Shown here: positions 1,172 through 63,886 of the stretch, piece after piece
How positions within the stretch are numbered: position 1 is the stretch's first letter
How the letters are laid out: each line of letters opens with the position of its first letter
DNA from: Zygnema cylindricum
Taxonomy: Eukaryota; Streptophyta; Zygnematophyceae; Zygnematales; Zygnemataceae
NCBI GenBank assembly: GCA_037447655.1
Contig: JBBHKE010001201.1
Location: 184,306-248,305 of the forward strand
Direction of reading: 5' to 3'
DNA: 64,000 nt
Made by a program: the position numbers and the translations under genes
The notes under the pieces: model-generated
What the model was told of the DNA's origin: nothing
The model's input: the letters and a program-made list of their open reading frames with translations, nothing else
The model's database searches: none

Positions 1172-1243
1172 AGAGATATCTCACAACCAATTGAGTGGAA
1201 GCATTCCATCGTCCATCGGTCAACTAATAGGACTCGCCCGCTT
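1172..1243 (+). CDS. Gene 1 LRR exon a (72 nt)
   Basis: It is bounded by GGCGTTACAG and GTAAGAC. In phase 2 it reads one complete plant LRR containing HNQLSGSIPSSIGQL. It is intact, unlike the matching exon of gene 2, which carries a 28-nt insertion. Confidence 0.8.
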
Positions 1244-12247: not shown

Positions 12248-13325
12248 TAAAAAAGTGAGGGTAAGCTCCTAGTCACACTAAATATCGTGTACGAGAGCGG
12301 TGATTGTAAGCTTCCCTATCACAATATAAATGGTTTAAAAGGGAAGAAAAAGGCAAATTTCCCCTTGTATTGTTTGGGGAATGGATAAGGATAAGCTCCC
12401 TTGACACCCTAAACATGGTTTGCTTGGAGTGGGGGTAAGCATCATTATCACACAAAACTGTTATGATTCAATGTTGAAAATCAAACGCGCGTTGGTACTT
12501 TTTTGTTTACGTCAACAATTCAGTTTTAAGTATGTACGTTTGGCTATTCGTGCGCGCACAGTGCACGAAAGGAATGTCCGAAGTTTCGAGTCATACGACG
12601 CACAAAAGTAAATCTATTACTTTTCGTGGCGCACGGCGCATGAAACACTATGTTTCTTCTATTCTCTCTCGAAAGAGAAAGCGCGTCACCTAACTTTTCT
12701 GTGTTTTTTCTTTCTTTTCGCGTGCCTTCATCCGGAAGGTGTCGCTTATGTGTATCTTTCCGTACACGGCAAGTCTTCTATGCACTTATTTAAGCTAGAT
12801 TGCTTAGCTGCAGATTTTATCCTGGAATTAGCTTTGGATCAATCTATGTAAAAATATAAAGTGGACCTAAGAGTGAAAAGAGGGAAGAGTGAGGGAAGGG
12901 CAAAAACCTAGGCTTCGGCCATTTTTGTTATAAAGATTTCTTTTTGGCCGATTGTGTGTTTATTTTGTGTGCTTCCGCTGCATGCCTTCCTTTTGGTGTT
13001 TCTTTCAAAAACTTGGTTTGGCGAAGAGGTGATGGTAAGCTCATGTTCACGCTAAACATGTTTAGGAGAAGTTGTGAGGGAATGCTTCTCTATCACACTA
13101 AATATGGTATGGGCACGAGACAAAAGCAATCTCCCCTGTCATACTAAAATGGTTTAAAGGAGAGTTGAAGGTAATGACCCATACAAAATATGGTGTGGGG
13201 AAGGGGTGAGGGTAAGCTCCCTTGTCACACTAGCTATGGTTTGGATGACTGAGCGTTAACTCCCTTATTACTATAATATGATTTTTGGAAAGCTCTAGTC
13301 TCACTAAAAGATAATTCTGTGAGAC
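12248..13325 (-). repeat. Minisatellite with about 45-bp unit, interrupted
   Basis: Diverged tandem units of the form GTGAGGGTAAGCTCCC plus CACACTAAATATGGTTT. It is the reverse complement of the array at 52385-52935. The array is split by about 550 bp of unrelated sequence at 12450-13010. Confidence 0.7.
12450..13010 (+). other. Inserted block inside minisatellite, possible solo LTR
   Basis: Sequence rich in CG and GCGCG, absent from the partner array at 52385-52935. It has a TATTTAAG motif near 12786 that could be a TATA box. Clear TG...CA ends and a target duplication were not identified. Confidence 0.3.
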
Positions 13326-13329
13326 AAAG

Positions 13330-15788: not shown

Positions 15789-15789
15789 A

Positions 15790-16241
15790 AAGGTGAAGAG
15801 AAGCACCCTTGTTACTCTGAATATGACTATGAGGGAGAGGGGAGATTGTAGGGATGGAGATAGAGTTGTAGTTTTAACACAGCCACACTAACTATGGTGT
15901 TGGGGTTGGTCCACTTCTCCCCCGCACTCTTGCCCTCCCTCTCCCTTTTTTTTTCACCGCCCCCTTCCCTTCCCTCTCTCCTTCTCTCTCCCTCTTGCCT
16001 TCCGCCGCTATCTTCGCGTTATTATCAATTGTAAAACTTTTAAGAGCATTTAACATTGTGCATATGCATTTATATTCAGAATTATCCACGTAAAGTAGTT
16101 ATTCATAATTAAACGCGCAACAAAAAATGGCTAATTCAGAAGGAAAAATTGCCAACAGATTTGTTGCCATGAAGTACATTTTTGAGAAAACTCTACCCCT
16201 GTTTAGAAAAGCAATTGGCTCAGTGAAGTAATTGGTCTTAC
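15790..16241 (-). other. Intron-like sequence left of the orphan gene head
   Basis: Reverse complement of about 48409-48850. It holds a C-rich tract at 15915-15990 and no exon that I can recognise. Confidence 0.6.
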
Positions 16242-16313
16242 AAGTATGTAACGTTTGTCAGTTGACATATGGAAGTTGGAATTTTTCCACTCAACTGGTT
16301 GTTCCACATATCT
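16242..16313 (-). CDS. Orphan head, LRR exon 4 (72 nt)
   Basis: Bounded on the minus strand by GGCGTTACAG and GTAAGACC. It encodes WNNQLSGKIPTSICQL and is the paralogue of 48337-48408. Confidence 0.8.
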
Positions 16314-18196: not shown

Positions 18197-19312
18197 GGCT
18201 GAGAACTCGCCACGTAAGAAGGTTTTCTAAAAAAAAAAATGTGGAGTCGTGGCAGTTTCTTCTACTAAAGACGGTTCAAGAAGAAAGGCTTTGACTCTAG
18301 TAATCCGTTGCAACGAATCTTCAAATGCGGTAAGAGGAAGGAATGAAGCCATCTGTACTTTGTACGATTCACATAAAACGGTCCACTTCTATTTGTCGGT
18401 TACTGCGGTCCTGTTCACCGCCTAAATGTACTTTTCAGAATAGTATGTCCAATTTCATTAGTCGGTGTGAATGACATCCGTACAAAGGATACACACCCGT
18501 GAAAACTAACTGAAATGAAGGCAGGTGCTGCCGATCATTATTGTGTCAGTGCTCGTTACGAACATTGTGATCACACGTGTGAGAATATGTTAAAATGGAT
18601 GTGTGGAGTCGCCATGTGACAATCGCCGCAATCCATTCGCGCGATTCGTGCGATGCGCATAGTACGGTACGGTACGGTCGGTGAAGCGTGCAAAAGTGGT
18701 CTTGCGTATGTGGCGGAAATGGATTTGAAAAGTTTTGACTCGTACGGTATTGCCATCGGCACTCTTGGGATGAACGCTTCGACTCGTACAACAGTCGGCA
18801 CGTGCAGGCTCAAGTCGAGAAATGAACGCCACGTGGAGGGTCTACGGCTGTAGTCCATCCCTTTTAACGAGACACAATCGGCATGCACTGAAAGAGCGGT
18901 ACGGAATGAAATAGTACAAATAGGGTACAAGTCAAAATTACCGTACAGCCGTTATTGGCGGGTGAATGGCCGCTTCATTTCTTTGGCCAATTTTTTTATT
19001 TAAAAGAGGGCCCCTCCAGGAAGCCCATTAATATTTCCCGTTTTACGTTTCAAATCTCCGGTCCAATGAAAACGCTCCGTCGTTCGCTTCAAAAGTGCGA
19101 GCGAAACTGTCACGTAGATGTCGCGCGTGTAAAATACGTTTTGGTTGATTACGTGGCATCATCTACGCCTAGTAGGAAAAAGACATCTACCGTTGTGATC
19201 CGTTGATTTACAAATATGTTCGATGTACAGCTCACGTATTTCTCATAATCATAAAGGATACGAAATAAGTATCCCAACACGTCACCGTCTACATTGTTAC
19301 AGGTAAGTACTG
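18197..19312 (-). promoter_or_regulatory. Upstream region of orphan gene head
   Basis: Inverted copy of 44790-45955. It contains a G-box core CACGTG at 18829-18834 and a conserved block near 18380-18412 also found at 45740-45769 and 19616-19648. No convincing TATA box was seen. Function is inferred only from position and conservation. Confidence 0.5.
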
Positions 19313-28874: not shown

Positions 28875-28875
28875 A

Positions 28876-31148: not shown

Positions 31149-33935
31149 CGAATCTCATCCCAATTCCTCCACCTGTATGAAGGTGAAGCTTAAACAACAA
31201 TGGAAGCTTTTATATTATAACCCTTGTTAATCATATAACGCTATATTTGCATATAGCCATCAACTTTGGGAAGTATAAAGGAAAACAGTTTTTCTCCAAA
31301 ATAACTTCATAAACATAACTAGGTACAACCCAATCATTTGTTTCCAAAATGTTGCAATTCAAAGTTGAGCTCGTTTTCTGGCTAATAGTTTTGAGAATTT
31401 CAAAAAAAATTCCACAACTTAATATTAACAGTTTGGAGAATCTGAATTTAAATAATGAATTTTGTTGCTTTTGCAAATTTACTTTCACCTTTTATAATAA
31501 TATGATGTATTTTATACAGAACAGGGAAATAAAAGGAATCAATTTCTTAAAGTAACACAAACACATGTGCAATGATTTTAAACGAATTTATTTTAATTGT
31601 CGTCATCCTCGAATTTCGAACTTGTCATCATAATGTTATGCATCTTATCCATGCAAGAGAAGTAACAAGGAATTTTATATTTTAATAAGATACACTGTGT
31701 AAAGATTTTACAAGTTTGTTAAATAACCATCAACATAAAGTCTAATAGTTTTAAAGCCACTTTAAAAATCACAACCACAATGTTTGTATTACAGCATAGT
31801 TATTTTCTCCTCTGTTTTACATGTAAAAAGTGAAATTGATGTTATGGTGACGAAACATAATTTTGTTAGCTTGACGTAACCTTGTCGGTGGATCAATCAA
31901 TAATATTCAGCGTGGATATAGAAAAGTGTTATGTAGTTGATTAAAACACTATGGTTACACGTAAAGATCCCAACATATTGAGTGGATAACGTGACTTCCT
32001 CATTTTGCCAAATTAGGAAACATGCCTCCTTCCCCATTTACCTTGCTATTTAGGTAGCTAACATACAATTCTAAACTTGTCGTTTTTCCCAAAAAAAACA
32101 AAGCAACAATCACTTCATTTTATTTTGCTAGTAAAGTTCTTCTCACATTGGTTGAGGAAATTTAGCTCATGCTTATTTTAGGCTATAAAAACACCTTATT
32201 ATGAATGCCAATATTAATCTTTGATAGCACTACCGAAACTCCTATGTTGGGGAAAGCAGGGAAATCGCCTAATGTTTTTTCTTCGATCAAGTCTTGAAAG
32301 TGAACGACTATGATTCGCTGAAGGCTTGGACCTTAGAGGATTGTGGTGGATACAAAGATCTGGCAATATAAACGCCTAACATGATTGAGTGGTTCCCAAC
32401 AAGAGGGCTGAAAAGGAAATTTCTTATAACTCAAATGACAATTTGAGGATTCTTGGTTATGAAAACATAAACATATATCAGGGACACAATGACTGTTGAA
32501 GATTGATATTTTTTTAAATATATTAGTTTGCAAAATGGAAATGTTCAAAAGTGTGGAACATGATTTGGTAAAAGGAGTATAAAGCAATAACTCTAATCTC
32601 AATATTTTATAATATGAAACCTTCGAGATTTTGTCTCCTTGAAACCGTTTTAATGCCAAATATTTTTGGCACTTCATGATATCTTCTCTCTATGTTGCCA
32701 CTACATCTTAAATAAAATCCAAGAATTGTTTTCAATATTCTTTAATAAGTTGTCTACTTAACTTCTAACAGGAAATAACTAATTAAAACGGCAAGAATGT
32801 TCTACTGTTCTTTTAATGAAATTCAATACAAAATTTGTCAATGTAAATGCCAAATGAAAAATAATTCATAACTAGGTTGTTGAAAAGAAACTCCAATAGC
32901 TCACGAGACCAAAGTAGTTATTGGGAATTTCACAAATAAGGAAGATCTTTACCGTATCAATAACCCTAAGAAAAGTTGCCTTTCATATAATGAGTTACAC
33001 GTAACCCTAAGAAAAGTTGCCTTTCATGTAATGAGTTACACGTTTCCTGTTTTCCCATGTTAGTATAAAAGAATCAAATAAATTCCAAGTATTTTATATA
33101 AATATTATTTTTTTCCACGTATTATAATGTGTATGTTTCTCAATCCAAGTATAGTTTCAACGCAATAGTACTCTTAATCAAAAACAAGTACATGGTGAAA
33201 TACGTTGGTCATTAAGTTGGGGTGATGGGTAGAGAGAGTAGATTGAGATAGAGAGAGAGAGTGAACGAGAGAGAGAGGGGATCGCTGAAGGAGTCAATCA
33301 ATGAACAAAGTCAGACGGGCGGTTGAGGATGAGGAGAGGGTGGGAGAGACGAAGAAAGAGAGGGGGAGAGAAAGAGCGACACACACACAAAAAGGCGTTG
33401 TAGATCTAGTATGGGGGTCGAGTTTTTACCCATATCCCATATCCACAATAACTTTTTACTTTCGATAACAGTCCTCTTCTCATTTGAGGGATCATACAAA
33501 AAATTAACATCTTCCATCAAATGTAGTGACATCTTTCTTCTGTCTTTTTTGATGACTTTAAGCATTTCACCTCTAATAGCCTAGTGTGGGTTGGGTAATT
33601 GAGTCAACGAAATTTCCCAAATTACCTCGATATTTAGAGGTGCTGTATGGATCAAGAAATTGAAGGCTAGGACGTGTTAGTTAGTTCTGGTTGGAGTGAT
33701 TTTCTATATTTGTTATCTCTTGAGTTCTTGAATCTTGACATCTATATGTATGACCAATCCACAACCACTTCGCTTATAATCCCATAGTTTTCATTTTTTT
33801 TCCCTTTGATTTTAGCCTTCTAATATTTGTACTTTCAGTGTTTTACTCTCAATGTACATGTTGTTTCAAAACCAAAGTTGTGTGTGCCAATCTTCTTTAG
33901 TGCGTGTTCACAAAACAAGCCCATATAACCCATGC
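31149..33935 (+). pseudogene. 3'-end remnant of an LRR-EGF-Pro gene and its flank
   Basis: Begins inside the proline-rich exon, keeping only codons for PIPPPV and a stop at 31168-31170. It then follows the downstream flank of the other copies, collinear with 4952-6425 plus 11807-12247 and with 59334-61980. There is no upstream exon, so this is a truncated duplicate. No other gene seen in it. Confidence 0.75.
33228..33395. repeat. GA-rich microsatellite
   Basis: Runs of GAGAGA with GGGAGAGA, and an ACACACAC run at 33380. The paralogous site is near 61400-61490. Confidence 0.7.
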
Positions 33936-41560: not shown

Positions 41561-41571
41561 TAAACTTTTCA

Positions 41572-43384: not shown

Positions 43385-43389
43385 AATGA

Positions 43390-44789: not shown

Positions 44790-45955
44790 AGACTACTGTA
44801 GTTTCACATGTAGATATTATGAGAAATACGTGAGCTGTACATCGAACATGTTTGTAAATCGATGGATCGCAACTGTACATGTGGTTTTCATATCAGGCGT
44901 GGATGATGCCACGTAATCATTCGAAATGTCTAAACACGCGTGATATCTACGTGACAGTTTCACCCGCACTTTTGAAGTTAACAATGAAGCGATTTCATTG
45001 GACGGGCGAAATGTAGTGTAAAACGGGAAATAGTAATGGACTTCCCTGAGGGGACCACTTTAAAAAAAATAAAAAATGTCTAACGAAATGAAGCGGCCTT
45101 TTACCCGCCGATAACGGCTGTACGGTTGTAGATTTTCCCACGGGTACTAAGGGTTCACACGCGTGAAAGTGATGTCGCTGACGTCAGGTGGCGGCGGCCT
45201 CGAGGTGGTCGTTGCGCGCACGCATGCTCGCAGTCGCCATGTGCCGATGACGCCAAGCGCCGATCGCGTCGACATCCATTCGCGGCACTCGCGCGATGCG
45301 GTTAGTACGGTCGGGTACGGTACGCTACGGTCGGTAAAGCGTGCAAAAGTCGTTTTACTTATGTGGCGAAAAAGGAATTGAAAAGTTTTGACTCGTACGG
45401 TATTTGTACCATTATATTCCGTACCGTCTTCCAGTACATGCCGATTGTATCGCGTTGAAAGCGATGGACTACAGTAGTGGACGCTCCACGTGGCAGTCAT
45501 TTCTCGACATGAGCCGTGCTGACTGTCAAAGCCATTAAGGCCGAAGCTTTCATCCCAAGAGTGCCGATGACTCCTGTACAGCAAGATGTACGTTTTAGCG
45601 TGACTCGCTTGACGGCGTAATTAGGGTCAGAATTCTGGAACTACACTGGACTGCAGAAACAAATATGTACGGATGTCATTCAAGCCGACAAATGAAATTA
45701 GACGTATTAAAAGTACATTTGGGCGGTGAACAAGACCGCAGAAACCGACAAATAGAAGTGGACCGTCTTATGTGAATGTGTACTCTCAAAGTACAGATGG
45801 CTTCATTCCTTCCTCGTGTGACGTTTGAAGATTCGTTGCAACGGATTACCAAAGTCAAAGCCTTTCTTCTACTAGAACCGTCCTTAGTAGAAGAAACTGC
45901 CACGTGTCCGTGTCTTTTTTTTTCGAAAACCTTCTTACGTGGCGAGTGCTCAGCC
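44790..45955 (+). promoter_or_regulatory. Upstream region of gene 2
   Basis: Conserved with the inverted copy at 18197-19310. It holds CCACGTGGC (45486-45494), CCACGTGTCC (45899-45908) and TACGTGGC (about 45937), all G-box/ACGT-core motifs bound by plant bZIP or bHLH factors. No clear TATA box. An in-frame ATG upstream (45776) exists, but the ATG at 45956 has the better context and starts the signal peptide. Confidence 0.55.
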
Positions 45956-46046
45956 ATGGCCGTCGCCATGACCATGATGAGCATCATACTGCTTTTCTTC
46001 CTCCACGTGGCACCCACCCTGGTTGCATCCATTCATGCAGGAGACG
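45956..46046 (+). CDS. Gene 2 exon 1, signal peptide
   Basis: ATG in GCCATGGCC context; 30 codons with hydrophobic core SIILLFFLHVAPTLVAS; donor GTAAGC, phase 1. Identical in length to the orphan-head exon. Confidence 0.82.
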
Positions 46047-49000
46047 GTAAGCTCCCTCCCTCCCCGCTCACCCTTTCGCACAGCTCGTTCTCTCTGTCTG
46101 CGTTCGCACGTGTGATTCCTCGCTCTGATTGGCTCGCGTGCGGCCCCTGTCGGTGCGGATGCTGCAGCGGCGGCGCTGTGGGCGATGCGGAAGGCCATCG
46201 TGAACAAGGAGAGATTCCCGCCGACCAGATGCGGAAATGGTGTCTACTGCGATCCTTCCGGTCGCGTAGTTTATCTGTGAGTGACAATCGCTGCGTGAAC
46301 TCTCTGCTGCGATAAATACGCACTCTATTTCGCACTGAAAACCGCACTAAATTTGTACTCATTGACTGGCTGGATTTCTGCCACGATCAATACGCATTAA
46401 AAACCGCACTAGATTTGTACTCACGAACTGGCTGGATTTCTGCCGCGATTATTACATTCTCTATTTCGCACTGAAAATCGCACTAAATTTGTACTCATGA
46501 CTGGCTGGATTTCAGCCACGATTAATACGCACTATATTTCGCACTAAAAACCGCACGAAATTTGTACTCATAGGCTGGTTGGATTCTCTGCTGCGATGCG
46601 ATGCGCTCTCCGGGGATGCTTGGGCGTTGCCGAGGCTTAGGGGGGCAGGGGGGAAAGGAAAGGGTGAGAGAGGCGCAAAAGGGTGAAGGGGAGGGAAGGG
46701 CGTCTGTGTAAGAGGGAAACCATGGAATGTTTTAACAAAAGACGAGAGACTTTTGCAAACATCTCTCTTAGTATACAGGAGAGTGGGCATGGAGAGAGTG
46801 GGAAGGGAGAGGGAAAAAGGGGGGAGCTTAAGGGGACAAAGTGGGAGGGAGGTGGGGGAGGTGAGCAAAGGAAAATTGAAGGCTTGCTAGAAAGAATATG
46901 GGAGGGGAGTACAAATATCTATTTAGGAGTATTGCGAGGGTGGTTGGGGTGGGAGGAGTAAATGGAGAACTTCAACAAATTATGGGAAGGGGGTTTCAGT
47001 GGTATAAGTTATGGGGGAGGAATAGAGAGACTTGTTTGTTGCGTAAATAAATGTTTAATGCGGTGGGGGGGTGGAGGGGCGAGGAGGTGAAGCGTGGGGT
47101 GGGGAGAAAAAGGGATGATTGTTAAAACTTATTCACCCACCAATCTGAGTGGTCCATAGGTGTAGGTTATGTGGGAGGAATAGAGGGAGCCGTTTAACAA
47201 CTAATGAAAGGGGTAGGGGAAGGACCACATTTGAAGATCATGAAAAGATCGATTTTTCTAATCAATGTTACTCACATAATACTTCTAACAGCAAAAGCGT
47301 TCACATTATGCAACATTGCATCACATTGAATGGACGTTGAGAGAAATAAAGGGAAATTTCTCACATAAAAAAAGTGGCTATTATAATGTCCTCTCTCCTC
47401 TCTTCTTTACTCTTTTATTTTTCCACATATTCCTTCAATAGATACTACATTCTACCTTGGGAAGTGCGTGACGTGACATGCAACCAAATTGACATTAACA
47501 TCGACACGGAGAGAGGAGAGGGCACTCATTGCAAAACCTAAGTGTTCATTGGGGCATGCAGATATTTACAAAATCGGGGACTTAAGGGGAGAATTGGGCC
47601 GGAGATCGGCAACCTCACAGCGCTAACAGGAATGTGAGTGGATATTGGGAGAGGGGATGTACCGCATATAATATGGGAAAAAGAAAATCAAGGCAAACGA
47701 ATCTTGAGTAAATATATTAAAAAACATCACAACATGCATTTTTAACTTTTGTTTTTTTTATTTTATGTTTCCGGTTGTAAAGTGAGAGAGGGACAGGTGG
47801 AAAAAAAAAGGTACTTATGATTTTTGAACGTTTGTTGTAATTGCAATCTTTGTGAGGTTTTGTATGATATGACTCCTTATTGTGATGGACAAAAGAATAG
47901 AAAGGTTTATGAGGGGGGTGGGGGTTGCGATGGGGTAAAAAAGGGTTATTGGGGGGGGTAGGGGTACACGTGGCGTTTGGGGGAGCGGGGTTAAAAGGCT
48001 CTTGCAGGGTGGAAATGGGGTGTTTTTTTGAGGAGGAATCTTGAACATTATAAACATCATTTTGCAAAAGAAGGTTGTCTTTACCAAACCTCATTATGTA
48101 CTTGGATTTGCAAAGATGAAACATATTACATTAGCTAGTGTTCTATAATTTATTTTGAATACAATTGAAAATTCACGATAACTTATAGTCATACATTTTG
48201 ACAAGTGTGATGTTGCATAATAACCCTACAAATGCACTCAACAATAGGTTGGACAATATTTTCACATTATTGTATTTTGTTCGAAAAAACTGGAAGGTAT
48301 GTAGAAGCGTGGATTAACAGATGGATGGCGTAACAGATTTCTACATAACAACCAATTGAGTGGAAGCCTTCCATCGTCCATATGTCAAATGTCGAACATT
48401 ATCTGGATGTAAGTCTAAATTCTACACTTAGCTAATTGCTTTTCTAAAATGGGGTAGATATTCCTCAAAAGTGGTGCACTGTCAACAAATCCGTTTGCAA
48501 TTTTTTCTTTCGACTTTGCTATTTATTGTTGTGCATTAAATTACGACTATCTACTATATGTTGTTAATTTTTAGTAGAAAAGCATATGCCCAATGGTAAA
48601 CTCTACCAAAAGTTTTACAATTGATAGAAATGCGAAGAAATTGGTGGAAGGCGAGAGGGAGAGTGAGGGGTAGAGGGAGGGGAAAAAGGTGGGTGGAATA
48701 GGGATGGAGGGAAAGGGCAAATGAGAGGGAGAGAAGGGGACCAACCCCAATATTTTCGTTAGTGTGGTTGTGTTAAAACCACAACTCTATCCCCATCCCT
48801 ACAATCTCTCCTCTCTCTCATAGTAATATTTCGAGTAACTAGGGTGCTTCCCCTCACCACTTCCCCAGACCATATATAGTGTGACGTGGAATAATATCGT
48901 CTATTCTCCTTTAAACCATGTTTAATGTTTTTCTGCAATGTCCGCTGCAACTGTGGAGGTTGAAGCCATTGGAGCAAAGCCACTTACGAAACATCTAAAG

Positions 49001-52000
49001 AACATTGACTTTCATGCTCTACTAAATGCAATGACTGTAACAAAAACACCTCAAAGTACACAGATGTGCAGAGTATATTCTATGCTATTACACTCCAATG
49101 TTTAATGCAAATTGATCCACCACAACAAATGATGTTAGAGGTTGAAGATACTAAAAATCACCTATGTTGGAAAATATGTCATAACCAAGACATCTTAAAA
49201 AATACGCTTATTTCTAAACTGTACTCATTCAGAGTAAAGCTACCTATGAACCAATCATATTCACGTAGAGCCCGATACCTTTGTATGTGAAATTTAACTA
49301 TGTAGTGCGTAACCTACTACATGGTACAGACAAACTTAATTATTACCAAATTCTAAGAAATCTAAATTTCACATTTATCAACTGATAAACAAGCGGACAA
49401 ACGCTTTTTTCATCAAGTTCATCGACCGACATAAAGTTATGTACACTACAAGAATTTATAGTCAATGTGGTCACCATTAGAATTCAAAGGCAGTTCTTGT
49501 TCTTTCAATCTCCGTATCTGACAGCGAGTAGTTTATGTCTGAATACGACCATTCCGTTGTTTGGTTGTTTCGATCGCCATTTGATCTTCCATTTAACTTG
49601 AATAGATCTTTCCACGCCCTGTCGCGTATTTGACTTTAGACGTACTTTCTTCAAATTGTTTTTCCACCCTCACTCTATTAATGAGAGACGTAACAAGGAG
49701 ACTCCCTCGTCGCTAAACTAAAAACGAGACTATCTTATTTTTAAACCAAAAGGAGATTCTTCTATTGCCATTTGCTTCTAAATGCTTATTGTTACACCCT
49801 AATAGTTCCTTTCTCACAAGATTGGCTATTAGGGAGAATAAAGTTTTCTTAAAGCAATAATCCTGTAAAGCTTAAGGATCTATTTGTCACTTAACCCACA
49901 AGCTTTTATGCAGTAGTTCAATTTTTAGGTGGTAGTGCTTGGTCAGTATATCGCCACCATCTTTTCAACAAGCAAACATCACAATTTGACAGCTCTTTCC
50001 ATCACTTCCTCTTTAACAAAGGTTAACTGAATGTTCATATATTTAATTTTTAACTTGGCGACTTAGGTCAAAATGAAGTGCACTTCCAACTTCATTATCA
50101 CACCACACTTTTTAAATACCAGACTGTAAAAACTCTCCTCCAAGACCGTGTATGGAGTTGGTCTGGAATACTGTTGTAGTTGGATAATTGGTTGATTTCA
50201 GCTGTTTCTACAAAAGTCCTTTGATCTAGTATTACACGTGGCATTTTCTATCTTTTGGTCAACTGTCACCCGAAAAACATCCACTTATGTTAGTTCATCT
50301 TTAACTAAGATGTTTCTAGCTATAGTCACCTTATTCTTTTTGGAACATACACACTATCATTCTGAAATGTCATCATAGCCTAGTACTATTCCTTGCAAAC
50401 CTTTACGTTTCATTTTCCATTTGGTTTTTGTATCATGTAGAATAAATACTTAACTCCCACATAATTTAAATTGACTGACAAATGGTTTAATACCAGTCAG
50501 TTGTTCTTAAGATGTCTTATCCTTTACAACTCTAGATTCCACTCTATTTTCTATATAAACTGCAGAGTTTCATTCAACCCCCTTTTTGAGCTAACAGTGA
50601 TCTTTCAGTCTCACTTAATATCCTTTTTAATCATTCAGCTGCACCATTTGCCTTCAAGTTACCATTTTTGAGAAGAACTTGAAACCCTTCCTTTCAGCTA
50701 AAGTTGTATGAAACAAATGCTTATTAAAGTTTGGAATATACAGGACATCGTGCAAAGTTCTCTCTTGTGGTTTACTATTTATGCCTACCATGAAAGTGAC
50801 TTGCCTTTTAACATTGGACGCCACGCACTATTCACATGCGTAGATGTGCATTGGTGGAGTGGTCGTAAGGTTTTCAAAGTAGAAAGGATTCTAGCACACA
50901 TGTGCAGAAGCCTTTGTGTTTATGATCCAACAGTAGCCTTTTTCTCCTTCCATTGCACTAAAAAGTGCGAAAAAATCCAATTTGAACCACCATAGCAGTC
51001 ACATCTTTGTTTTCTGTTGTAAGCATAAGTGTCTTTTGGAGGTCGATTGCTTGGGCTTCCACAGTGCCATCTTGGATGAAATGACTATGCCTCAAACGCC
51101 TTTCTATATTCTGGACAACACCTATATCTGTCCTTTTTTGTCACAATAGTAGCAGATGTTAGTCCATGGATAAAAATTAGTATTCTAACTGTTTTGGCTA
51201 GTCTGCTATTTTATTTTAAACTAGCTATTAAAAGTGTTAGTTGAAACTAGATATTAAAAGCGTTAGTTGGTTTGTTAGTCTTCATCGCCTGACAACTTTC
51301 CTTATCTAGATTAAGCTAGGTTCCAATCAGCCTTTGATTGAGTTAATTGTTTCACTTTCTTTGAGACACTTTTATACTCATCAGGTAAGCCTCTCATTAC
51401 TAATAGTGAGGCACCTTTATACACATCAAGTAAGCCTCTCACTACTAATATCGCCAGATCTTTATGAAAATTGCCTCTTGGGCAAGCGTTTTCAAATATC
51501 TAACTTCCTCTTGCCATTACTCAACTATGGTACCTCCAAAGCACTGGCATCTCAAATTTTGCCAACTATTGTCATTTGATGTTGCATGTCTTCACAAACA
51601 TGTCTTTCAATGGGAGAAACACCTCAAACTATAGTGATGTGTAAAATACATCTTATGAAATAAATCTGAAACGTTTTATGCAACTTGATCCACCACATCA
51701 AAAAATATTAGTGGCCGAAAATACCAAAAATCACCCATGTTAGAAAAGATGTCAAGATTGGGACATCTCAAGAAATACACTAAGTCCTAAACTATATACT
51801 TGGTGAGAGTATACCACCTACGAGACAATGTGACTCGCGTAAAGTAGGGTACCTACGTACACAATCTAAAATATATGGTGCATAACACACGGACAAACCT
51901 AATAAACCCCAAGTCCCAATAAATCTAAATCTTACGCTTTTTAAATAAATCATAAGCGGACAAACGCTTGTTTCTTCAAGTTCGCAAACTGACATAAGGC

Positions 52001-55000
52001 AATACACATGACAAAAATTTACGGTTAATGTAGCCCCCATTAGAAGTCAAAGGCGGTTCTTGTTTGTGTGATCTTCGTACTTTTTTGGTTCGTACAATCC
52101 GACTTCAGACATAGTTTAATCAAACTTTTTTCCCGCTCTCATGCTGTTAATGGTAAGAGTAGTGAGGAGACTACCTTTTCGTTGAACAAACAAGGAGACT
52201 ACTTTGTCTTTAAACGAGAGACGAGCATCCCTTGTTGGTAAATCAAAGAGAGAGCCTTCCGCTGCCATTTCCTTATAGACCCTTAGCTAGGTTATAATCT
52301 TAAAGTTACAGTCTTTATATTCCTCTGAAGTTCCTCTATCTCACATAATTATCTATTAGTGAGACTAGTGTTTTCCAAAAATAAAATTTGTAGTAACAAG
52401 GGAGCTAACGCTCACTCCTCCAAACCATAGCTAGTGTGACATGAGAGCTTACCCTCACCCCTCTCGTATATCCTATTTCGTATGATAGAGGAGGTTACCC
52501 TGACCCTTTCGTCAAAAACATTTTTAGCGTGACAAAGGAGTTTCCCCTCATCTTTAGCCAAAACTTGTTTAGTGTGATAGAAAACGTACCGTTATTTCTC
52601 CCCCAAACCATATATTGCGTGATAAAAGGAGTTTACCCGCATCCCTCCCCCAAACCATATTTTGTGCAATTGGGAGTTTACCTTAACCCCTCCCCTAAAC
52701 CCTAATTAGCGTAATACTTAAAAATTATCTTAAATCTTAACCCCACTCCCCAGTAAAACATATTTAGGGTGGCAAGGGAGCTTACCTTTATTCCTTATCT
52801 AAACAATACCAGGGGGAATTTCCTCTCCATTTTAGTGTGATAGGGAAGCTTATCCTAACCCCTCTCCTACACAATATTTAGTGTGAATAGGAGCTTACCC
52901 TCATTCTTCCACCATACCATATTTAGCCTGATACTTAAAAATTCTCAAAACATGACCAACAAAGCAAGCAAGAGGCTAGGGGAGTGGAGGGTAAGGGACG
53001 GGAGGGGAGGAGAGGGGAGGGGAAAGGAAACGAAAAGACGACGGTCTAGGAGGAAGTAATGAGGAGAGGGGAGACTAGAAAGGTGATAAGCAAAATGAAA
53101 CTTTGGATGTCTTGAAAACAAGATGAGATGAGGGTTTGGGTCATCATAGAGCTCCACAGTTGATGTGTATTTTCAAAACATTAGCAATTTTTAGGAAACA
53201 AATGGTAGAAGGTTTTAAGTTATTAATGAAAATTTAAAAAAATCATCGCTAAAAAGTTGAAGCACTAAACATAAATTATCCATAAAAGGTGCTTTGTTTT
53301 CCAAAATTTTAAGATCACATCGCATAATTTCACGTTATAATTTTCCCCTAAAAAATAATTTGAAAAATGTATTTGAGGGGTTGTGTTGGATATTTTTTCA
53401 AAAAGAATTTCAACCACAGTGATATAACCTCAAAATGTTGGAAAAAATAAATGAAATTTTTACAAAACAAAATCCAAAATACAAATATGAAATAAGCAGT
53501 GTTGACACGCGTACACATTAAACATTTGGAAACAAATCATCAAAAATTGTATCCTACAGTTCAATTCGTTAAAAAAAAAGAGTGGCGCATGTGAAATCCA
53601 TCATTTACAATAAAAAATTCATCATAAATTGTAGCTGTTCATTTTCACAAGTGTGAGTTTAGATTAGAGCCCTTCCTATGTTCATCATAGGATTTCATGT
53701 CCATTTTTCCTTAGATGTATTTTATTATGGTCCAAATAAACACGCATTAAGTGGGGTAGGGGCGTTGATGGGGTGGATATAGAAACAGAGATCTTGGAAC
53801 AACAAGATATGTGAGTGGAATGCAGATCTAAACAATAATTTTAGGTTCATTTTTTCTTAAGTTTATTATTATGGTCCATTCAAGTATTTGTTAATATAGG
53901 AAGGGTTGATGACGGGGTGGATGGTGGACAGGGAACTATCGAACAACCAGTTGAATGGAAGCATTCCATCGTGCATCGGTCAAATGAAGGAACTCTATCT
54001 ATTGTAAGATTTAATTCTACACAAAGTGGAGTAGAGGGGAGCGTATAAGGGAGGTTGGGGGGGGGGAGGACGAGATTGAGCGGAGGGTAAGAAAACTGGA
54101 AAGCTGGGAACTATGTGGGGTGGAGTGAATAGGAGGAGATGCGCAAGCAAGGGCGCTGGGGTGGGAGGGAGTGGGAATGCAAGCGAGGGGAGGGGAGGGG
54201 ACGGGAGAGAGGGGAAGCATGGGATGGGCGGAGAGGGGAGGGGACGGGAGAGAGGGGAAGCATGGGATAGGCGGAGAGGGGGAGGGGAGGGGAGTGAAGA
54301 AAAGGGGGCATTGGCGAGGGGTTAACGGATAGGAGGGGAGATAAAAAGAGGGGAAGAGACGGGTGGAGGGGGGGAGGAGACTGGTGACGGGGAGAGAGGA
54401 GGACGTGACGTAGGGTATAGGGCATGGGAGAGTGCAATAGGGGTCGGGGAAAGGGAAGGAATGGGGAGTGGAGGGAGGGGAAAATAAAGGTAGGGCGAGG
54501 GTTGCTGTAGGGATGGGAGTGTTTGGAGATTCGAGGTGGAGGGGAGAATGTAGAGGGGGGCGATGGGGGAGACGGTGGGTGGGAGGGAGGGAAGGGGAAG
54601 TAGCGAGCAGAGGAGGGGAGTCTAGAGGAAAAAAATAAAGTGGATGGGATAAAAGTGTAAACGAGGGCACAACACACGGTGGTAGGGAGAGGATGGGAGG
54701 GGAGGCGAGGTGAGGTGAGAGTAAAAGAATGGATGGCGGACTAAGGGAGAGAAAAGTGGAGGGGGAAGACTACACCGCGAATTGTTATTAGCGTCAAGGT
54801 TTTTTTCGCCACTTAAAACATCTTTTCTTCGTACACACTTGTCGGATTTTCAATTTGAGACCGCCAATTGGAAGCTGCGAATGTTACCTTTCAATCGCAA
54901 CTGTCAGATACACGAGCCGACAAGTGTGTCAGGAGAAAAGATGTTTTAAGTGGCGAAAAAAACCTTGACGCTTATATCGATTTGCGGCGTAGAGGAGTGA

Positions 55001-58000
55001 TAAGAAGGGTGACATTTTGAATCCTTGTAAACAAAACGAGATGTTGGTTTGGGTTACCATACCTTGTGTAGTTTTTAATACATTAGCAAAATTCAAAATA
55101 TAGAAGGAAGATTTTTTCTTTATTCAATAAAGTAACAAAATATAATGGTGAAAAGGTCAAAGCACCAAATAAACAAGAATTGATTGAACAACGTGTTTTG
55201 TTTCCATATTTATAAGAACACATGCATATATCTATTCAATATTTATATTTTTTAACAAAATATGGAATTGACATTTTCTAATAGCTTTTTTATCACAAAG
55301 TGGAAAATGCCGAAAATGTCGTACAAAAAGTGAATGGAATTTCAATAACACAAGAAAAAAATAAAAGAATTGCGTAAACTCACCGAAGATAGTTCATACT
55401 CATTTCTTCTTAATTTTATTATATTCCGGTACAAATAAGCAAAAGTATTTTAGAAGGTGGCGAGTTGATGAAGTTGATGGCGTTTCAGCCATTTATCTTG
55501 CAACCGATTGTCACACAACTTTAAAACAAAACCAGTTGAGTGGAAGCATTCCATCCTCCATCGGTCAACTAAAATCCCTCATGAGATTGTAAGACAAAAT
55601 CCAACACAAAGCGAAATGCTATTTTTTAAATGAGATAGAATTTTTTCCAAAATATTACTTAATGGGAACAAATGTGTTAGCTCATTTTTGATGTATACTA
55701 ATTTCTTATTTTTGAAATTACTAATTGCTACGATTTTTGTCATGTTTACCACAAAAACTGTTAGCAAAATGCTCAACTGTCCTAAGGCTTTTTAGGTTAT
55801 TACATTATTTAACTCCATGTACGGGAAGAAGGCAGAAGGAGGGGAAGGTAAAGGCGGAAGGGAGACCGTCACTTCCATTACAATCATTAATGTGGTTGGG
55901 GAGGTTAAACTCATTCCCTTTCCCACCTTCCCCCCCTCCCCCACATGGTAGCTAACTTTCACCCTTCTTTATGGGTTGGACGGCGTTGCAGATACGTAAA
56001 TAACAACCAATTGAGTGGAAACATTCCAGATTCCATCGGTCAACTGAGAAATCTCGAATCCTTGTGAGATAAAATCCTACACAAAGCCAAATTCTATTTA
56101 AAAAATGAGATAAAAATTTCTCTAAAATGGTGCTTAATGATAATAAATGTGTCAGCTCAACTTTGATTTTGAAGTTAAAAATTGGTATGATTTTTATTAT
56201 GTTTACAACAAAGTCTCTTAGCAAAATGTTCAACTGTCCTTAAGCTGTTAAAATTAATAAACAACAATATAACTCCATGCAAGAGGAGAAAGGGAAGGGG
56301 AAGGGAAGGTGGAAGAAAGACCAACGCTCCCGTTATAATCCTATGTGGTTTGGAAGCTTAATACCAAAACCCATCCCGTTTCCCCACATAACCCACCTCC
56401 CTTAAATAGAAGCTTACCCTCACTCCTCATTGATGGGTTGGATAACGTCACAGAAGGTTAGGGAACAACCAGTTCAGTGGAAGCATTCCATCGTCCATCG
56501 CTAAACTTCCGCGCCTTTGGTATTTGTAAGAAACGAAATTTAACAACAAAAAAGTATATATATATATACATATATAACAAACGAAGCTAAATAACACAAA
56601 GTTCCAAACATTTTGGGGGTGGGGGGCGGTGCTCACCTCTTCACATTTGATTACTTAACTCTCCTTTTAGTTTCCGTTTATTGATTCCATTTGAGTAGGT
56701 GTTTGTCAAAAGAGCGGGTGAAAATAAAAAATAGATAGAGAGCGTTTGTAAGAGGGGATGAATATTCACGGAAAAGGAGGGAAAGAATGCCGTGAAGAGA
56801 GGACGATAGGGTGATGGAAAAATGGAAAGAGAGAGAGAGTCGTGGTAAGAAGGGAAGGAGGCATAGGCGATAAGTGGTGGGCGCAGCATGGTTAAAAGTG
56901 GGTCGAGAGAGTGTGGTGGTTAAGATAGAGACGGAGTTGTAAAAGGGAGGGGAAAGTTTGGAAAAGGATGAAAGGAAAAGTAGAATGGATTGTTAGTAAA
57001 AAGGGAAGAAATAATTGTGGCTATAAGAGGGGGATATTGTGAAAGTAACGGTATAAAGGGAGGGAAAGAATTGCCGCGAGAGATAATGGGAAGGGTAGAG
57101 AGTGACAATGAGATAGAGATGAGACGGGATGCAAAAAAAAAAAAAGATAGTAGGAGAGGGTCGCAGTTAGCGGGCTTTGAGGAAATGATGGCAGAAAAGG
57201 AAATAGTTGTAGCTGTTAGGAGGGTGGAGAGGGTGGTTGTGAGAGGGTAGAGAGGAAGAGTGAGAGAAGCTGGTCTTTATAAAGGAATTACGACAATTAC
57301 GGTCAAAATGGATGGGAAAGTGTTGTTTGAAAGGGGAGGTGGGCGAACAATGAAAGATGTAGTGGCCAAAAAAAGGTTGAAAGTTCGTCTCTGCCTCTCT
57401 TCTCCTCTCACCTCTACATAAAAAGTCTCTAATCTTTTCTTTTGGCCTTTTTTTAATCAAGGCGGAATGCGAAGGGACTGGAGTGAGTAATTGTAGGAAA
57501 AAGAAAAGAAGGGAAGGAAAGGAAAGGAAGGGGAGGAGAAAAGAGATGAGAGGAGCGGGAGAAAGAGGGGAGAAGAGAGGAGGGGAGAGAAGCGGAGTGG
57601 AAAAGTGAGGGAAGTGAGTGGAGAGGATGGAAAGGATGGAAGAAGAGGGAAGGGGTGTGGAAGGAAGTGGACGCCAATGGGTTTTGAAAGTGGGGATAAA
57701 TTGAGGGAGGAAGAGAACAGGGGCATGGGGGGAAAAGAGAAATAAAGGAAAAGCAAAAGAGGGGTGGGGACAGGATGCCTAATGAAGAGGGTAGAACTTT
57801 GAATGTCTCTAAAACAAAAAGAGAGAAGAAAGTAAAGATAAACTTCAAGAAAAAAAAATCAATAGAGCTCCACGTTGAGCGCAAAGGTTTCAACAATATA
57901 TTGAACATCTAGTTTTTTTTTTTAAATTCTTTTTAACAACTGAAGCAAAATTAGAGTTGAGAAATTGAAGGGTCACCCCCTTTTCAATTCCTCTCACAAT

Positions 58001-59333
58001 TCCAACTTTACTACCTATTTAATTGTTCTTTCTAAATCTTTTACATCTGTTTTTATTTGTTTTTTGTTTAAGTTTTTATTTTTCCTTTGTCATTCGTATT
58101 TTTTAGGGTCTTCAAAATGACGAAGTTGTGCAAATGAAATATAATCGTTTCAAGATAAGAAAAGGGATGATTTTGTCACGTTCAAAAAAGGAAAAATCAA
58201 AACGGAATTTTCCCAAATTCCTTTATTCACTAAAATTCCGTAAACACTCGTTTTCTCTATGCAAAAAAATGAGGACCAAAAATATCCCCCTCTCCTTCCC
58301 CTTTTGCCCACCGTCAAAAAGTTGTTAAAAATAAGAGTGTAAACAAAAAACAAAGAAATGTTTTCTTTCTTTCACGTGCTACATTCAAAATAAGGCGTGT
58401 GACACTCAGAGCTAAATAAAAATTCTAACTCCTCCATTTCCATTGACGATTTTTTTGAACAGTTTGTTTCAGAACAACTATTTCACTGGGCACCTTGTAG
58501 TAGGTGTCTTCAGGCCTGACTGTTACGGGTTTTCCGAAAATTGTTTGTCTGCCTCGAGCATCCCATCTCGATGCGGATCCAACAACCAGCGAAGTACGAG
58601 CGATTGCGAAGCATTCTGCAATGCCACGCAGGTTGGAGGGCCATGTGGGGGAAACGGCATTTGCTCTAATAGCACTGATGGGACGAGACGGAAATGCGCT
58701 TGCAACCAAGGCTACACCGATGGAGCAAGCAAATACACTTGCAAATGTACGATTTCTCGTAGCTATTTTGCTTATATAAATAGATTCCCTTTTCACAGCA
58801 ATATAAATATGCACATTTTCCGTTGTTGTGGTCTCATGCCTCTCACACTCTCAGATTTGTAATGATATATCCATGGTTTTCAAATCGAATATTATATATT
58901 TTGTTCTTATATTTAGGAATTCTCATTAAATTGCGCAATGTTTTTCACTATTTATGGAAACCGATGCAAGCTGTAAAAAAATACCTATAATTGATTTATT
59001 TCTGAGGAACAGTGTTCACCCAAAAAACAAGGGATCTAAGGCTTTGAAAAATATGGTTTTTCCATTATTAAAGATTTGTTTTGTTTTCCAGTACTAAATC
59101 AACCACCTCCACTAAGTTCACCACGTTTTGGACCACCTCCATTGCTACCAACCCGCCCACCTCCTTCACCTCCCCCTTCACCACCGCTTAGATCACCTCC
59201 CCCTCCATCTCCACCTCATTCACCCCCCCGTTTACCTCCTTCAAAATCTCCTTTCCCACCTCCTTCACCCCTTCGTTCACCTCCTCCAGCACGTGCACTT
59301 AACCCAACGCCTCCAATTCCTCCACCCGTATAA
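45956..59333 (+). CDS. Gene 2: secreted LRR-EGF-proline-rich protein
   Basis: Exons: 45956-46046 signal peptide; 46168-46276 N-terminal cap; 47562-47633, 48337-48408, 53932-54003, (55517-55588 damaged), 55992-56063 and 56454-56525 single LRRs; 58463-58746 last LRR plus EGF; 59092-59333 proline tail ending TAA. Every junction agrees in phase. Without the damaged exon the product is 361 aa. All LRR exons are phase 2-2, so losing one keeps the frame. The cap motif CGNGVYCDPSGRVVYL and repeats such as LQNRGLKGRIGPEIGNL are plant LRR receptor-like features. There is no membrane segment or kinase, so a wall-associated or apoplastic protein is inferred. The proline tail suggests wall binding as in LRR-extensins, though the EGF module is different. 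The 5.5-kb intron 4 carries a copia relic. Confidence 0.75.
46168..46276 (+). CDS. Gene 2 exon 2, LRR N-terminal cap
   Basis: Acceptor GATGCTGCAG and donor GTGAGT. It encodes AALWAMRKAI and then TRCGNGVYCDPSGRVVYL, the C-x5-C cap and first beta-strand of plant LRR proteins. Confidence 0.82.
46316..46598 (+). repeat. Four-copy tandem repeat, about 73 bp, in intron 2
   Basis: Units share CGCACT...AACCGCACTAAATTTGTACTCA...GGCTGGATTTCTGCC. The inverted arm has a single unit (about 17782-17860), so the array grew after the duplication. Confidence 0.85.
46600..47110 (+). repeat. Purine-rich intron tract, gene 2
   Basis: GGGAGGG-type sequence on the sense strand. The mirrored arm at 16660-17760 is pyrimidine-rich, so it too is purine-rich on its sense strand. 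Confidence 0.7.
47562..47633 (+). CDS. Gene 2 exon 3, LRR (72 nt)
   Basis: Acceptor GGGGCATGCAG and donor GTGAGTGG. It encodes YLQNRGLKGRIGPEIGNL, phase 2-2. Confidence 0.82.
48337..48408 (+). CDS. Gene 2 exon 4, LRR (72 nt)
   Basis: Acceptor GATGGCGTAACAG and donor GTAAGTC. It encodes HNNQLSGSLPSSICQM. Confidence 0.82.
48409..48989 (+). other. Start of intron 4 of gene 2
   Basis: Begins GTAAGTCTAAATTC, conserved with the other LRR introns. It holds a purine-rich tract at 48640-48740 and minisatellite-like pieces at 48770-48920. No exon seen. Confidence 0.6.
48990..52375 (-). mobile_element. Copia relic in intron 4, minus strand
   Basis: LTR-like direct repeats at about 48990-49870 and 51600-52375 (both with GATCCACCACA and AAAATCACC blocks) flank broken pol on the minus strand. 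Part of it (about 50330-50510) mirrors the integrase region at 15070-15230 in the left arm. No frame of useful length remains. Ends are approximate. Confidence 0.65.
51340..51450. repeat. Short tandem duplications inside copia relic
   Basis: Two units of about 47 bp with TATACTCATCAGGTAAGCC or a close variant. A smaller 26-bp doubling lies at about 51225-51275. The + frame here repeats FYTHQVSLSLL and is not a gene. Confidence 0.6.
52385..52935 (+). repeat. Minisatellite with about 45-bp unit, gene 2 intron 4
   Basis: About eleven diverged units of GTGATAGGGGAGCTTACC, CTCACCCCTCCCC and AAACCATATTTA. It is inverted relative to 12248-13325. A similar AAGCTTACCCTCAC piece precedes several LRR exons (for example 56411). 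Confidence 0.75.
52940..53931 (+). other. End of intron 4 of gene 2 with a relic LRR exon
   Basis: A purine-rich patch at 52975-53070, then AT-rich sequence. At 53789-53825 a broken LRR exon can be seen (AACAAC...TGAGTGGAA after AAACAG), cut short and out of frame. Confidence 0.55.
53932..54003 (+). CDS. Gene 2 exon 5, LRR (72 nt)
   Basis: Acceptor GGATGGTGGACAG and donor GTAAGATT. It encodes SNNQLNGSIPSCIGQMKEL. The matching exon of gene 1 would lie just left of the window. Confidence 0.8.
54004..54770 (+). repeat. G-rich purine tract in gene 2 intron
   Basis: Paralogue of 1-715, with repeated GGGGAGGGGACGGGAGAG units, including a near-perfect doubling at about 54195-54275. Minus-strand frames (54017-54677) are composition artefacts. 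Confidence 0.75.
54773..54989. mobile_element. MITE, 217 bp, long inverted repeats
   Basis: Inverted repeats of about 70 bp (CACCGCGAATTGTTATTAGC at the left). Flanking TA at 54771-54772 and 54990-54991. The collinear site in gene 1 (679-680) is an empty single TA, proving insertion after the duplication. Confidence 0.92.
54992..55516 (+). other. Gene 2 intron sequence
   Basis: AT-rich; collinear with 690-1171 of gene 1. No feature seen. Confidence 0.6.
55517..55588 (+). pseudogene. Gene 2 exon 6, LRR exon with disrupted 5' side
   Basis: The downstream part encodes QNQLSGSIPSSIGQL and keeps donor GTAAGAC. The normal acceptor (GGCGTTTCAG, ends 55488) is now 100 nt from the donor because of a 28-nt insertion, which shifts the frame. 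The base pair before 55517 is AC, not AG. Exact skipping of this exon would keep the frame. Confidence 0.7.
55992..56063 (+). CDS. Gene 2 exon 7, LRR (72 nt)
   Basis: Acceptor GGCGTTGCAG and donor GTGAGAT. It encodes NNNQLSGNIPDSIGQLRNL. Confidence 0.82.
56454..56525 (+). CDS. Gene 2 exon 8, LRR (72 nt)
   Basis: Acceptor AACGTCACAG and donor GTAAGAAA. It encodes GNNQFSGSIPSSIAKL, the full-length version of gene 1 exon c. Confidence 0.82.
56526..58462 (+). other. Gene 2 intron 8 with purine-rich tract
   Basis: Collinear with 2163-4054. Purine-rich from about 56700 to 57800, then AT-rich. No exon recognised in either copy. Confidence 0.65.
58463..58746 (+). CDS. Gene 2 exon 9, last LRR plus EGF-like module
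   Basis: 284 nt, acceptor TTTTTTGAACAG, donor GTACG. It encodes FQNNYFTGHL, ENCLSASSIPSRCGS and the EGF module with six cysteines (CGGNGIC, KCACNQGY, YTC). It differs from gene 1 mostly by substitutions and stays open. Confidence 0.85.
59092..59333 (+). CDS. Gene 2 exon 10, proline-rich tail
   Basis: Acceptor TTGTTTTCCAG. Eighty codons including stop, with PPSPPPSPPLRSPPPPSPP-type sequence, ending PPIPPPV and TAA at 59331-59333. Confidence 0.82.
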
Positions 59334-61985: not shown

Positions 61986-62243
61986 AAACAAGCCCATACC
62001 CAAATGTCATTTACTAAAATTTTGTAAACACTCTTTTTTTTGTAAGAGAATAGACGAGGACCAAATAGATCCCCCTTTCATTCCCCTACTGTCACAGTCC
62101 AACATTAATTAAATATAAGGGTGTAAACAAAGAACGAAAATATATTTTCTTCCTTTCACATTCTGCATTCATATTAAAGCGTGTGACAATCAAAACATAA
62201 TCAAAAGTCTCACTCCATTTCCTTTGACGAATTTTGTGAACAG

Positions 62244-63150
62244 TTCTTTTTTCAACAACTATTTCACTGGGCCTCTTGTTCTAGCCAACGAACTATCTGA
62301 CTGTTGGGGGTTTCTCGGAAATTGTCTGTCTGCCTCGAGCATCCCATCTCAAAGAGGCCCTAACAACCAGCGAAGCAAAAGCGATTGCAAAGCATTCTGC
62401 AATGCCACGCAGGTTGGAGGGCCTTGCGGGTGAAACGACATTTGCTCCAACAGCACAGGTGGGACAGCACGAAAATGCGCGTGCAACCAAGGCTACACCG
62501 ATGCAGCAAGCAAATACATTTGCAAATGTACAATTTCTTGTGCTAATTTGCCTACGTAAAATTAAATTGCCTTTTCGAAGCAATAGAAATGCACACAATT
62601 GTTGGTGTTGTGGTCTCATGCCTCTGTGGTCTCATGCCTCTCTCAAATTCAGTTTTGTAGTGATGTATCCATGAAACTTTGAATCAAATATTGTTTGTTG
62701 TGTTCAAATATTTAAGAATTCTCATTAGATTGCACAAATGTTTACACTATTTCTGGAAAGCTTTTAGATTTACGGAAACCGATGGAAGCTCTAACATAAA
62801 ACCTAAAATTCATTTATTTTTGGGCAACAGTGCTTACCCAAAAAAAAGAGATCTAAGGCTTTAACAAATATGGCTTTTCCAACATTTAAGATTTGTTTTT
62901 TTTTCCAGTACTACCGCAACCACCTCCACTAAGTTCACCACGTTTTGGACCACCTCCATTGTTACCAACCCGCTCACCTCTTTCACCTCCTCCTTCACCA
63001 CCGCTTAGATCACCTCCCCCTCCCCTTCCCACTCTTTCACCCCCGCGTTTACCTCCTTCAAAATCCCCTCTCCCACCTCCTTCACCCTTTCGTTCACATC
63101 TTCCACCAAGTGTACTCAACCCAATGCCTCCAATTCCTCCAACCTTATAA
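62244..63150 (+). pseudogene. Broken 3' end of a third LRR-EGF-Pro gene
   Basis: Exons 62244-62527 (EGF, 284 nt) and 62909-63150 (proline tail, 242 nt) have intact splice sites and lengths. The EGF exon carries TGA at 62431-62433, right after GGPCG, where the others have GGA. The Cys of PSRCG is replaced (PSQRG). No LRR exons are found upstream; homology begins at about 61990. It is a truncated duplicate lying directly behind gene 2. Confidence 0.8.
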
Positions 63151-63597
63151 TGGTGAAGCTCAAACAACAATGAAATATTTTATAGTACAACCTTTCTTAA
63201 TCATCTTACACTTTAAATGCATGTTGCCACCAAATTCGGAAAAAAAAAAAACATTTTTACTCCAAAATCACTTTGTTAAAATAACCGAGTACACCCTAAT
63301 TGTCTGTTTTCAAAATGTTGTAATCAAAAGTTGAGCTAATTTTTTGCCTAATAGTTCTAAGAATTTAACAAAATTTTCCACATCTAAAAAATTGATGGCT
63401 TGGAGAATCTGAATGAAAATTTTTAAATTTGTTGCTTTTGCAAGTTTGCTTTCACCTTTTATAATAATGTGATGTATTTTATACAAAACGGAGAAATGAA
63501 TAGAATCAATTTCTTAAAGTAGCAAAGATACATGTGTGCAATTATTTTATACAATACTATTTCAATTGTCGTCATCCTCAAACTTCAATCGTGTTAT
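63151..63597 (+). other. Downstream flank of the third tail copy
   Basis: Collinear with 4952-5350; broken at about 63597 by unrelated sequence. No gene. Confidence 0.6.
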
Positions 63598-63886
63598 CAT
63601 ATCGAAGCGTCGCCAATATTCCCAAGAATAGCGATTCGTCGCCAAACGATACTTGGCAACTATACTCCAAAATCGCGTGTGTCTGCACGAAATGAAATAT
63701 ACCGCACAAAATACTCCGAAAAACGCGATGCTTCGCCCAAACGATATTCGCGTCCATACTTCGAAATAATCTACCTACGCACAAAACATAAAAAGTCGCA
63801 CAAAATTAGTACCAATTCAATTAGACAAGTGCGTGAATCGCGCACACGCCCAAACTAAGTGACCAAACAATATATCACCAAGCAAA
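63598..63886. other. CG-rich unassigned sequence
   Basis: Contains two diverged copies of a CGCC(C)AAACGATA...CG block. It begins at the breakpoint of the tail copy and probably belongs to an inserted element cut by the window edge. Confidence 0.45.

Follow-up and report, generated by a model that had tools for sequence, protein, structure and literature searches.

What kind of protein is encoded by the split gene at positions 45956..59333 of the window (the whole 64-kb stretch of DNA that was analyzed), and what might such a protein be for? The question concerns more than one gene. A blastn self-comparison of the window finds five copies, referred to here as A, B, C, D and E, so the gene at 45956..59333, copy D, belongs to a family rather than standing alone. 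The reading we prefer is that of a family of secreted, wall- or matrix-anchored recognition proteins in which the LRR face diversifies between copies and the stem stays constant. We give this reading about an even chance of being right.

Gene structure of copy D

Copy D consists of nine exons on the plus strand, with a spliced length of 1086 nt (361 aa plus a stop codon):

45956..46046, plus strand: exon 1, start codon and signal peptide; 91 nt, 91/91 identical in B
46168..46276, plus strand: exon 2, LRR N-cap with C-x5-C; 109 nt, AG/GT ends, 99/109 identical in B
47562..47633, plus strand: LRR exon D3; 72 nt, counterpart B3 at 17105-17034
48337..48408, plus strand: LRR exon D4; 72 nt, counterpart B4 at 16313-16242
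53932..54003, plus strand: LRR exon D5; 72 nt, 3' of a 5.5-kb intron, no counterpart within the window (copy A begins immediately 3' of this point)
55517..55588, plus strand: LRR-like stretch D6, outside the 361-aa model; AC replaces the AG acceptor, counterpart A1 at 1172-1243 has a normal AG
55992..56063, plus strand: LRR exon D7; 72 nt, counterpart A2 at 1631-1702
56454..56525, plus strand: LRR exon D8; 72 nt, counterpart A3 at 2094-2162 has a 3-nt deletion
58463..58746, plus strand: exon for a half LRR, cap part and ten-cysteine EGF-like module; 284 nt
59092..59333, plus strand: proline/serine tail exon with TAA stop; 242 nt, kept in A and E

There are GT donors and AG acceptors at all exon borders of copy D, and the last exon closes with TAA. 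As calculated from exon lengths, the junctions into and between LRR exons are in phase 2, and those between exons 1 and 2 and between the EGF-like and proline exons are in phase 1. Within every LRR, the first hydrophobic codon of the LxLxxN strand is divided by an intron. The paralogous exons of A and B preserve both the splice sites and the reading frame. The first-pass annotation had proposed a split gene with GT-AG sites, consistent phases and a 361-aa product, and as a predicted gene this is borne out. It had also counted ten exons, where nine suffice. D6 has no AG acceptor, and splicing it as 55518-55588 (71 nt) would shift the frame. The D6 sequence itself codes for a good LRR repeat. 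Because the LRR exons are symmetrical, skipping D6 costs one repeat and leaves the frame unharmed. An alternative start at 45776, in the same frame, is not favored; its reading meets a stop in copy B.

A scan of the window for open LRR-like exons of the form AG-72 nt-GT finds seven, all of them inside copies of this gene. By chance, the same scan yields seven such exons when the counts of 40 dinucleotide shuffles are added up. A profile based on all 11 LRR exons of the copies, which is informative only on further exons since it was made from the ones it recovers, finds no additional LRR exon in the window; its next-best match (E 0.89) is the half repeat that opens the EGF-like exon of copy A. 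A tRNA search and an Rfam search at gathering level gave no match in this DNA.

The introns of copy D also contain repeats. Tandem-like repeats lie at 46303-46591 in intron 2 (79-89% between units), and the 5.5-kb intron holds two related stretches, 49044-49501 and 51617-52064 (71%), both of which also match copy B. An inverted repeat at 54770-54992, 77% identical to its own reverse complement over 223 bp, resembles a small hairpin element and is related to 20137-20288.

The predicted protein

From its N terminus, the 361-aa product has a signal peptide, an N-cap, five 24-residue plant-type LRRs, a half repeat and cap, a ten-cysteine EGF-like module and a Ser-Pro tail. The signal peptide has a 19-residue Kyte-Doolittle mean of 2.25 at residue 1. 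No transmembrane stretch is found in the product, the maximum 19-residue hydropathy after residue 40 being 0.72. Secretion of the predicted product is supported by this signal peptide and by the lack of a later hydrophobic stretch.

The LRR part is matched by Pfam LRR_1 in four stretches at 51 bits (cut-off 20.6), and its repeats, of 24 residues each, fit the plant LxLxxNxLxGxIPxxI pattern. Its top matches in the PDB are plant LRR receptor kinase ectodomains; LRX2 and LRX1 are also among the matches. For the cysteine module, an EGF identity is plausible. EGF cysteines follow the spacing C-x(n)-C-x5-C-x10-C-x-C-x12-C, and the six cysteines at 239, 248, 254, 265, 267 and 280 have this spacing. 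All ten module cysteines are retained in copy A. The Pfam EGF families all score below their cut-offs, the best being EGF_Teneurin with 20.3 bits against 24.3. A profile of the EGF-like exon has a single match in the PDB (E 0.59), taken as chance, and the exon has no relatives in viral contigs (11 pattern matches) or prokaryote contigs (62 pattern matches). Its AlphaFold model is weak, with a pLDDT of 48.5 overall and of 64-72 over residues 51-80, where there are two strands.

The last 80 residues include 40 Pro, 11 Ser and 0 Tyr. There are six SP2-4 motifs in this tail, which is separated from the LRRs by the EGF-like module. No Pfam kinase is found in the product, nor in any of the 23 plus-strand stop-to-stop segments of at least 45 aa downstream of it up to the window end, and the proline exon is kept with its stop in D, A and E.

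How do these features compare with what had been proposed for the protein? The domain order and the secretion find support in the sequence, and the absence of a kinase from the downstream segments, together with the conserved proline exon and stop, agrees with a kinase-free gene. A search of the product for LRRNT, LRR and EGF domains had been suggested. The LRRs are recovered, the EGF domain is not recovered at Pfam cut-offs and stays at the level of plausible, and none of the 14 Pfam families listed for this protein is an LRRNT. Binding to the wall has its sole support in the Ser-Pro tail, which lacks tyrosine.

Copies of the gene in the window

The remaining copies are partial or cut by the window edge:

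1..6422, plus strand: copy A, 3' part (blastn and exon alignment); open, 5' part outside the window edge; LRR exons 1172-1243, 1631-1702 and 2094-2162, EGF-like exon 4055-4338, proline exon 4704-4951
12256..19249, minus strand: copy B, 5' part, inverted (blastn and exon alignment), with signal, N-cap and two LRR exons only; exon 1 18196-18106, exon 2 17984-17876, LRR exons 17105-17034 and 16313-16242
31160..33925, plus strand: copy C, of which only the 3' flank and the 3' end of the proline exon are present (blastn to 59313-61998)
62009..63601, plus strand: copy E; EGF-like exon 62244-62527, proline exon 62909-63150

Copies A and B are adjacent, lie in opposite orientations and cover different parts of the gene. 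This arrangement suggests either an inversion or two partial copies. In both A and D, the three most 3' LRR exons lie in head-to-tail modules of 459-475 bp. The EGF-like exon of copy E has an in-frame TGA and has lost one cysteine, and its frame otherwise holds. Decay is ongoing at the locus, as seen from the incomplete copies B, C and E, from the stop in E and from the lost acceptor of D6.

Retroelements are also found in the window. A copia-type LTR element at 6428-11801, in the 3' flank of copy A, has LTRs that are 88.6% identical, with gag-pre-integrase and integrase matches. Two more LTR pairs with copia-type gag matches between them lie at 20411-29516 (20411-21015/22982-23586, 92.2%; 23980-24582/28915-29516, 94.0%). 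A copia coding region with gag, integrase and reverse transcriptase matches (40378-44439) ends ~1.5 kb 5' of exon 1 of copy D.

One stretch of copy D is far closer to copy B than its surroundings are:

45949..46234, plus strand: tract nearly identical to inverted copy B, covering exon 1, intron 1 and the first 67 nt of exon 2

Within this tract there are 2 differences in 286 nt, both in intron 1. The rest of 45666-46380 has 69 differences in 429 nt (gap columns counted), and D and B are 77-93% identical outside the tract (150-bp windows). The simplest cause is a recent event of gene conversion, linking two inverted copies that lie ~28 kb apart; strong constraint, as the alternative, would have to extend over an intron.

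Variable ends of the LRR exons

Where in the LRR exons do the copies differ? Five pairs of exons at the same position can be compared (D3-B3, D4-B4, D6-A1, D7-A2 and D8-A3). When exon ends are defined as nt 1-8 and 55-72, limits that were chosen after the pattern was seen and are applied to few pairs (n=5), the ends differ at 43/119 sites (36%) and the cores at 29/228 (13%). The flanking introns differ at 385/2743 sites between D and A and at 200/1127 between D and B, i.e., at 14-18%. The divergence of the exon ends is matched by 0/20000 random intron placements of the same footprint. With D6 left out, the counts are 34/101 for ends and 26/184 for cores, again with 0/20000 intron placements. 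Between different repeats (32 pairs), cores differ by 0.18 and ends by 0.58.

Classing the residues of the repeats gives a similar picture. Changes affect 30/69 exposed and 9/45 framework positions (p=0.015), or 24/55 and 8/36 without D6 (p=0.045), with framework positions presumed to be those of the plant LRR consensus. This test is independent of the end limits, yet weaker than the exon-end test. Most changes fall at repeat positions 2, 4, 21 and 23. At exposed positions pN is 0.30, against 0.151 for introns (p=1.8e-6; without D6, p=1.2e-4).

Plain positive selection on the LRR exons does not account for these observations. Their dN/dS is 0.89 over the five pairs (0.99 over four pairs without D6), and exposed codons also show an elevated rate of synonymous change (15.7/41, pS 0.38). 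Because synonymous changes are raised there and few in the LRR exon cores, and because dN/dS is 0.89, selection on residues is unproved. The pattern is one of hypervariability or block replacement and not of a clean excess of dN over dS; selection acting on individual residues explains it no better than block replacement or clustered mutation would.

Could the family be an LRX-like wall protein whose copies drift, with an LRR face whose ligand is fixed, either an endogenous peptide or a wall polymer, and a proline tail that holds the protein in the wall? LRX proteins have a secreted LRR domain followed by a Ser-Pro-rich tail, and they bind RALF peptides (excerpts of PMC8004791). The predicted product of copy D likewise combines a secreted LRR part with a Ser-Pro-rich tail in the same order, and the SP2-4 motifs of the tail and the LRX2 and LRX1 matches in the PDB point the same way. 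However, the exon ends exceed the intron rate, which drift cannot bring about. Moreover, the tail of copy D lacks the tyrosine of the LRX tail, an additional EGF-like module lies in between, and the LRR part is spread over several single-repeat exons. LRX genes are not known to have single-repeat LRR exons. We consider an LRX-like wall protein unlikely. The first-pass annotation had suggested a ligand partner as one possibility. Set against a fixed partner of this kind, a diversifying recognition protein is favored by three features absent from that annotation: the presence of several copies, the hypervariable ends of the exons and the tract that indicates conversion.

Constraint on the EGF-like exon

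The EGF-like part is under purifying selection. For the EGF-like exon, dN/dS is 0.33 (D-A), 0.41 (D-E) and 0.28 (A-E), with Fisher p < 0.005 in each case; the comparisons with E may carry older constraint. The signal comes with a marked division inside the exon. In the Cys/EGF part, D and A differ at 4/69 residues (pN 0.02, pS 0.22), with 10/69 changed in D-E and 7/69 in A-E. In the first 25 codons of the same exon, which are the end of the LRR domain, 11/25 residues have changed between D and A (pN 0.25). The other non-LRR exons give no purifying signal: dN/dS is 1.44, 1.09 and 2.02 for the proline exon and 1.12 for the signal and N-cap part, although the signal exon is identical in B and D. 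Indels in the coding exons of D and A keep the frame (six gaps: 3, 3, 3 and 6/2/4, which cancel), while 39 of the 53 intron indels are not multiples of 3.

These values also bear on whether the family still works at all. It could be a decaying repeat family, functional once, whose broken copies, D included, were spread by duplication among retroelements, the open frame of D being a leftover. In favor of this, only D among the five copies is neither partial nor truncated by the window edge; E carries a stop, D6 no longer has its acceptor, and copia elements surround the locus. Against this stand the nine intact exons of D, the dN/dS of 0.28-0.41 for the EGF-like exon (again with the possibility of older constraint where E is involved), and the coding indels that keep the frame where most intron indels would not. 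A family in decay seems unlikely.

Comparison with known systems

What does the family resemble? Its plant-type LRRs, the layout of its exons and the Ser-Pro tail hint at a plant or alga as the probable source. One match in exon structure is found among receptors. In rice LRR kinases, 72-nt phase-2 exons each encode one LRR, with an intron interrupting the first Leu codon of xxLxLxx (excerpts of PMC3050792). Copy D has the same single-LRR 72-nt phase-2 exons and plant-type LRR sequence as rice LRR receptor kinases. Unlike LRR receptor kinases, its product has an EGF-like module and a proline tail, with no kinase or membrane segment found; LRR receptor-like proteins have a membrane segment, and none is found here. 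It is highly improbable that the product belongs to a receptor kinase or receptor-like protein, as an ectodomain whose membrane part was missed: receptor kinase ectodomains are the top PDB matches and the exon pattern equals that of the rice kinases (PMC3050792, in excerpt), but 0/23 downstream plus-strand segments of at least 45 aa inside the window match a kinase, three copies retain the proline exon together with its stop, and hydrophobicity later in the product reaches only 0.72.

Three further systems with LRRs can be compared. Brown algal LRR-ROCO genes have 72-bp phase-2 LRR exons, exon duplication and variable residues on the concave side (excerpts of PMC11378527). LRR exon length and phase, exon duplication and variable concave-side residues are all shared with the present family, with the limit that the excess change at exposed positions comes here with raised synonymous sites. 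The first paper on ROCO exon shuffling is reportedly that of Zambounis in 2012. Unlike LRR-ROCO proteins, the copy D product is predicted to be secreted and has an EGF-like module and a proline tail, and ROC-COR is not among the 14 Pfam families listed for it. Lamprey VLRs have a signal peptide, an N-cap, 24-residue variable LRRs, a cap and a constant Pro-rich stalk, with partial copies nearby in both orientations (excerpts of PMC3308329). Copy D has the same order of parts, with variable LRRs and a constant Pro-rich stalk, and there are partial copies near it in both orientations. The VLR germline gene is incomplete, whereas copy D has nine open exons; its LRRs lie in separate exons, the 64 kb contain four partial copies, and the one sequence read gives no sign of somatic assembly. 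Tetrahymena LRR genes have 90-bp phase-2 exons with one repeat unit each, expanded by exon shuffling and unequal exchange (excerpts of PMC6564038). They resemble copy D in having one repeat unit per phase-2 exon, and differ from it in unit length (90 bp) and gene architecture. A literature search, thin on subscription journals, listed no secreted LRR-EGF-proline family.

Proposed role and implications

How might a diversifying, secreted recognition protein of this kind work? First, the nine-exon gene, as its sequence reads and with expression predicted, would give a secreted protein without a membrane anchor or kinase. Second, its five LRRs would form a short, curved binding face, each repeat coming from one 72-nt phase-2 exon with a junction at the start of a beta strand, as the likely fold suggests. 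The exon ends would code for exposed residues around that strand, and their variation, which goes beyond the intron level, may make binding specific to each copy. Third, the cysteine-rich EGF-like module may serve as a conserved stem that spaces the LRR face, and the Ser-Pro tail, probably hydroxylated and glycosylated, may retain the protein in the wall or matrix. Fourth, the set of copies would be renewed by duplication and inversion, both seen in the window, and by gene conversion, for which the one tract speaks. A face that varies while its stem stays the same, in copies renewed by duplication and conversion, suggests recognition of something that is itself variable. The most likely use would be the binding of variable non-self molecules from a microbe or a mating partner, and the bound molecules might then be presented to a membrane receptor or blocked.

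A bolder version of this scheme is a cassette system, in which the intact gene would take LRR exon ends by gene conversion from partial copies of either orientation, namely A, the inverted B and others in the genome. A non-animal eukaryote would then have fast-changing, perhaps somatically changing, secreted LRR binders on a constant EGF-proline stem. We regard this as a long shot. If the main reading is right, this secreted family with its variable face and constant stem would be an extracellular counterpart of the exon-by-exon diversification of LRRs in brown algal ROCO genes. The clean exon borders, the fixed stem and the nearby partial copies make the origin of the diversity, and whether it is confined to the germline, directly testable.
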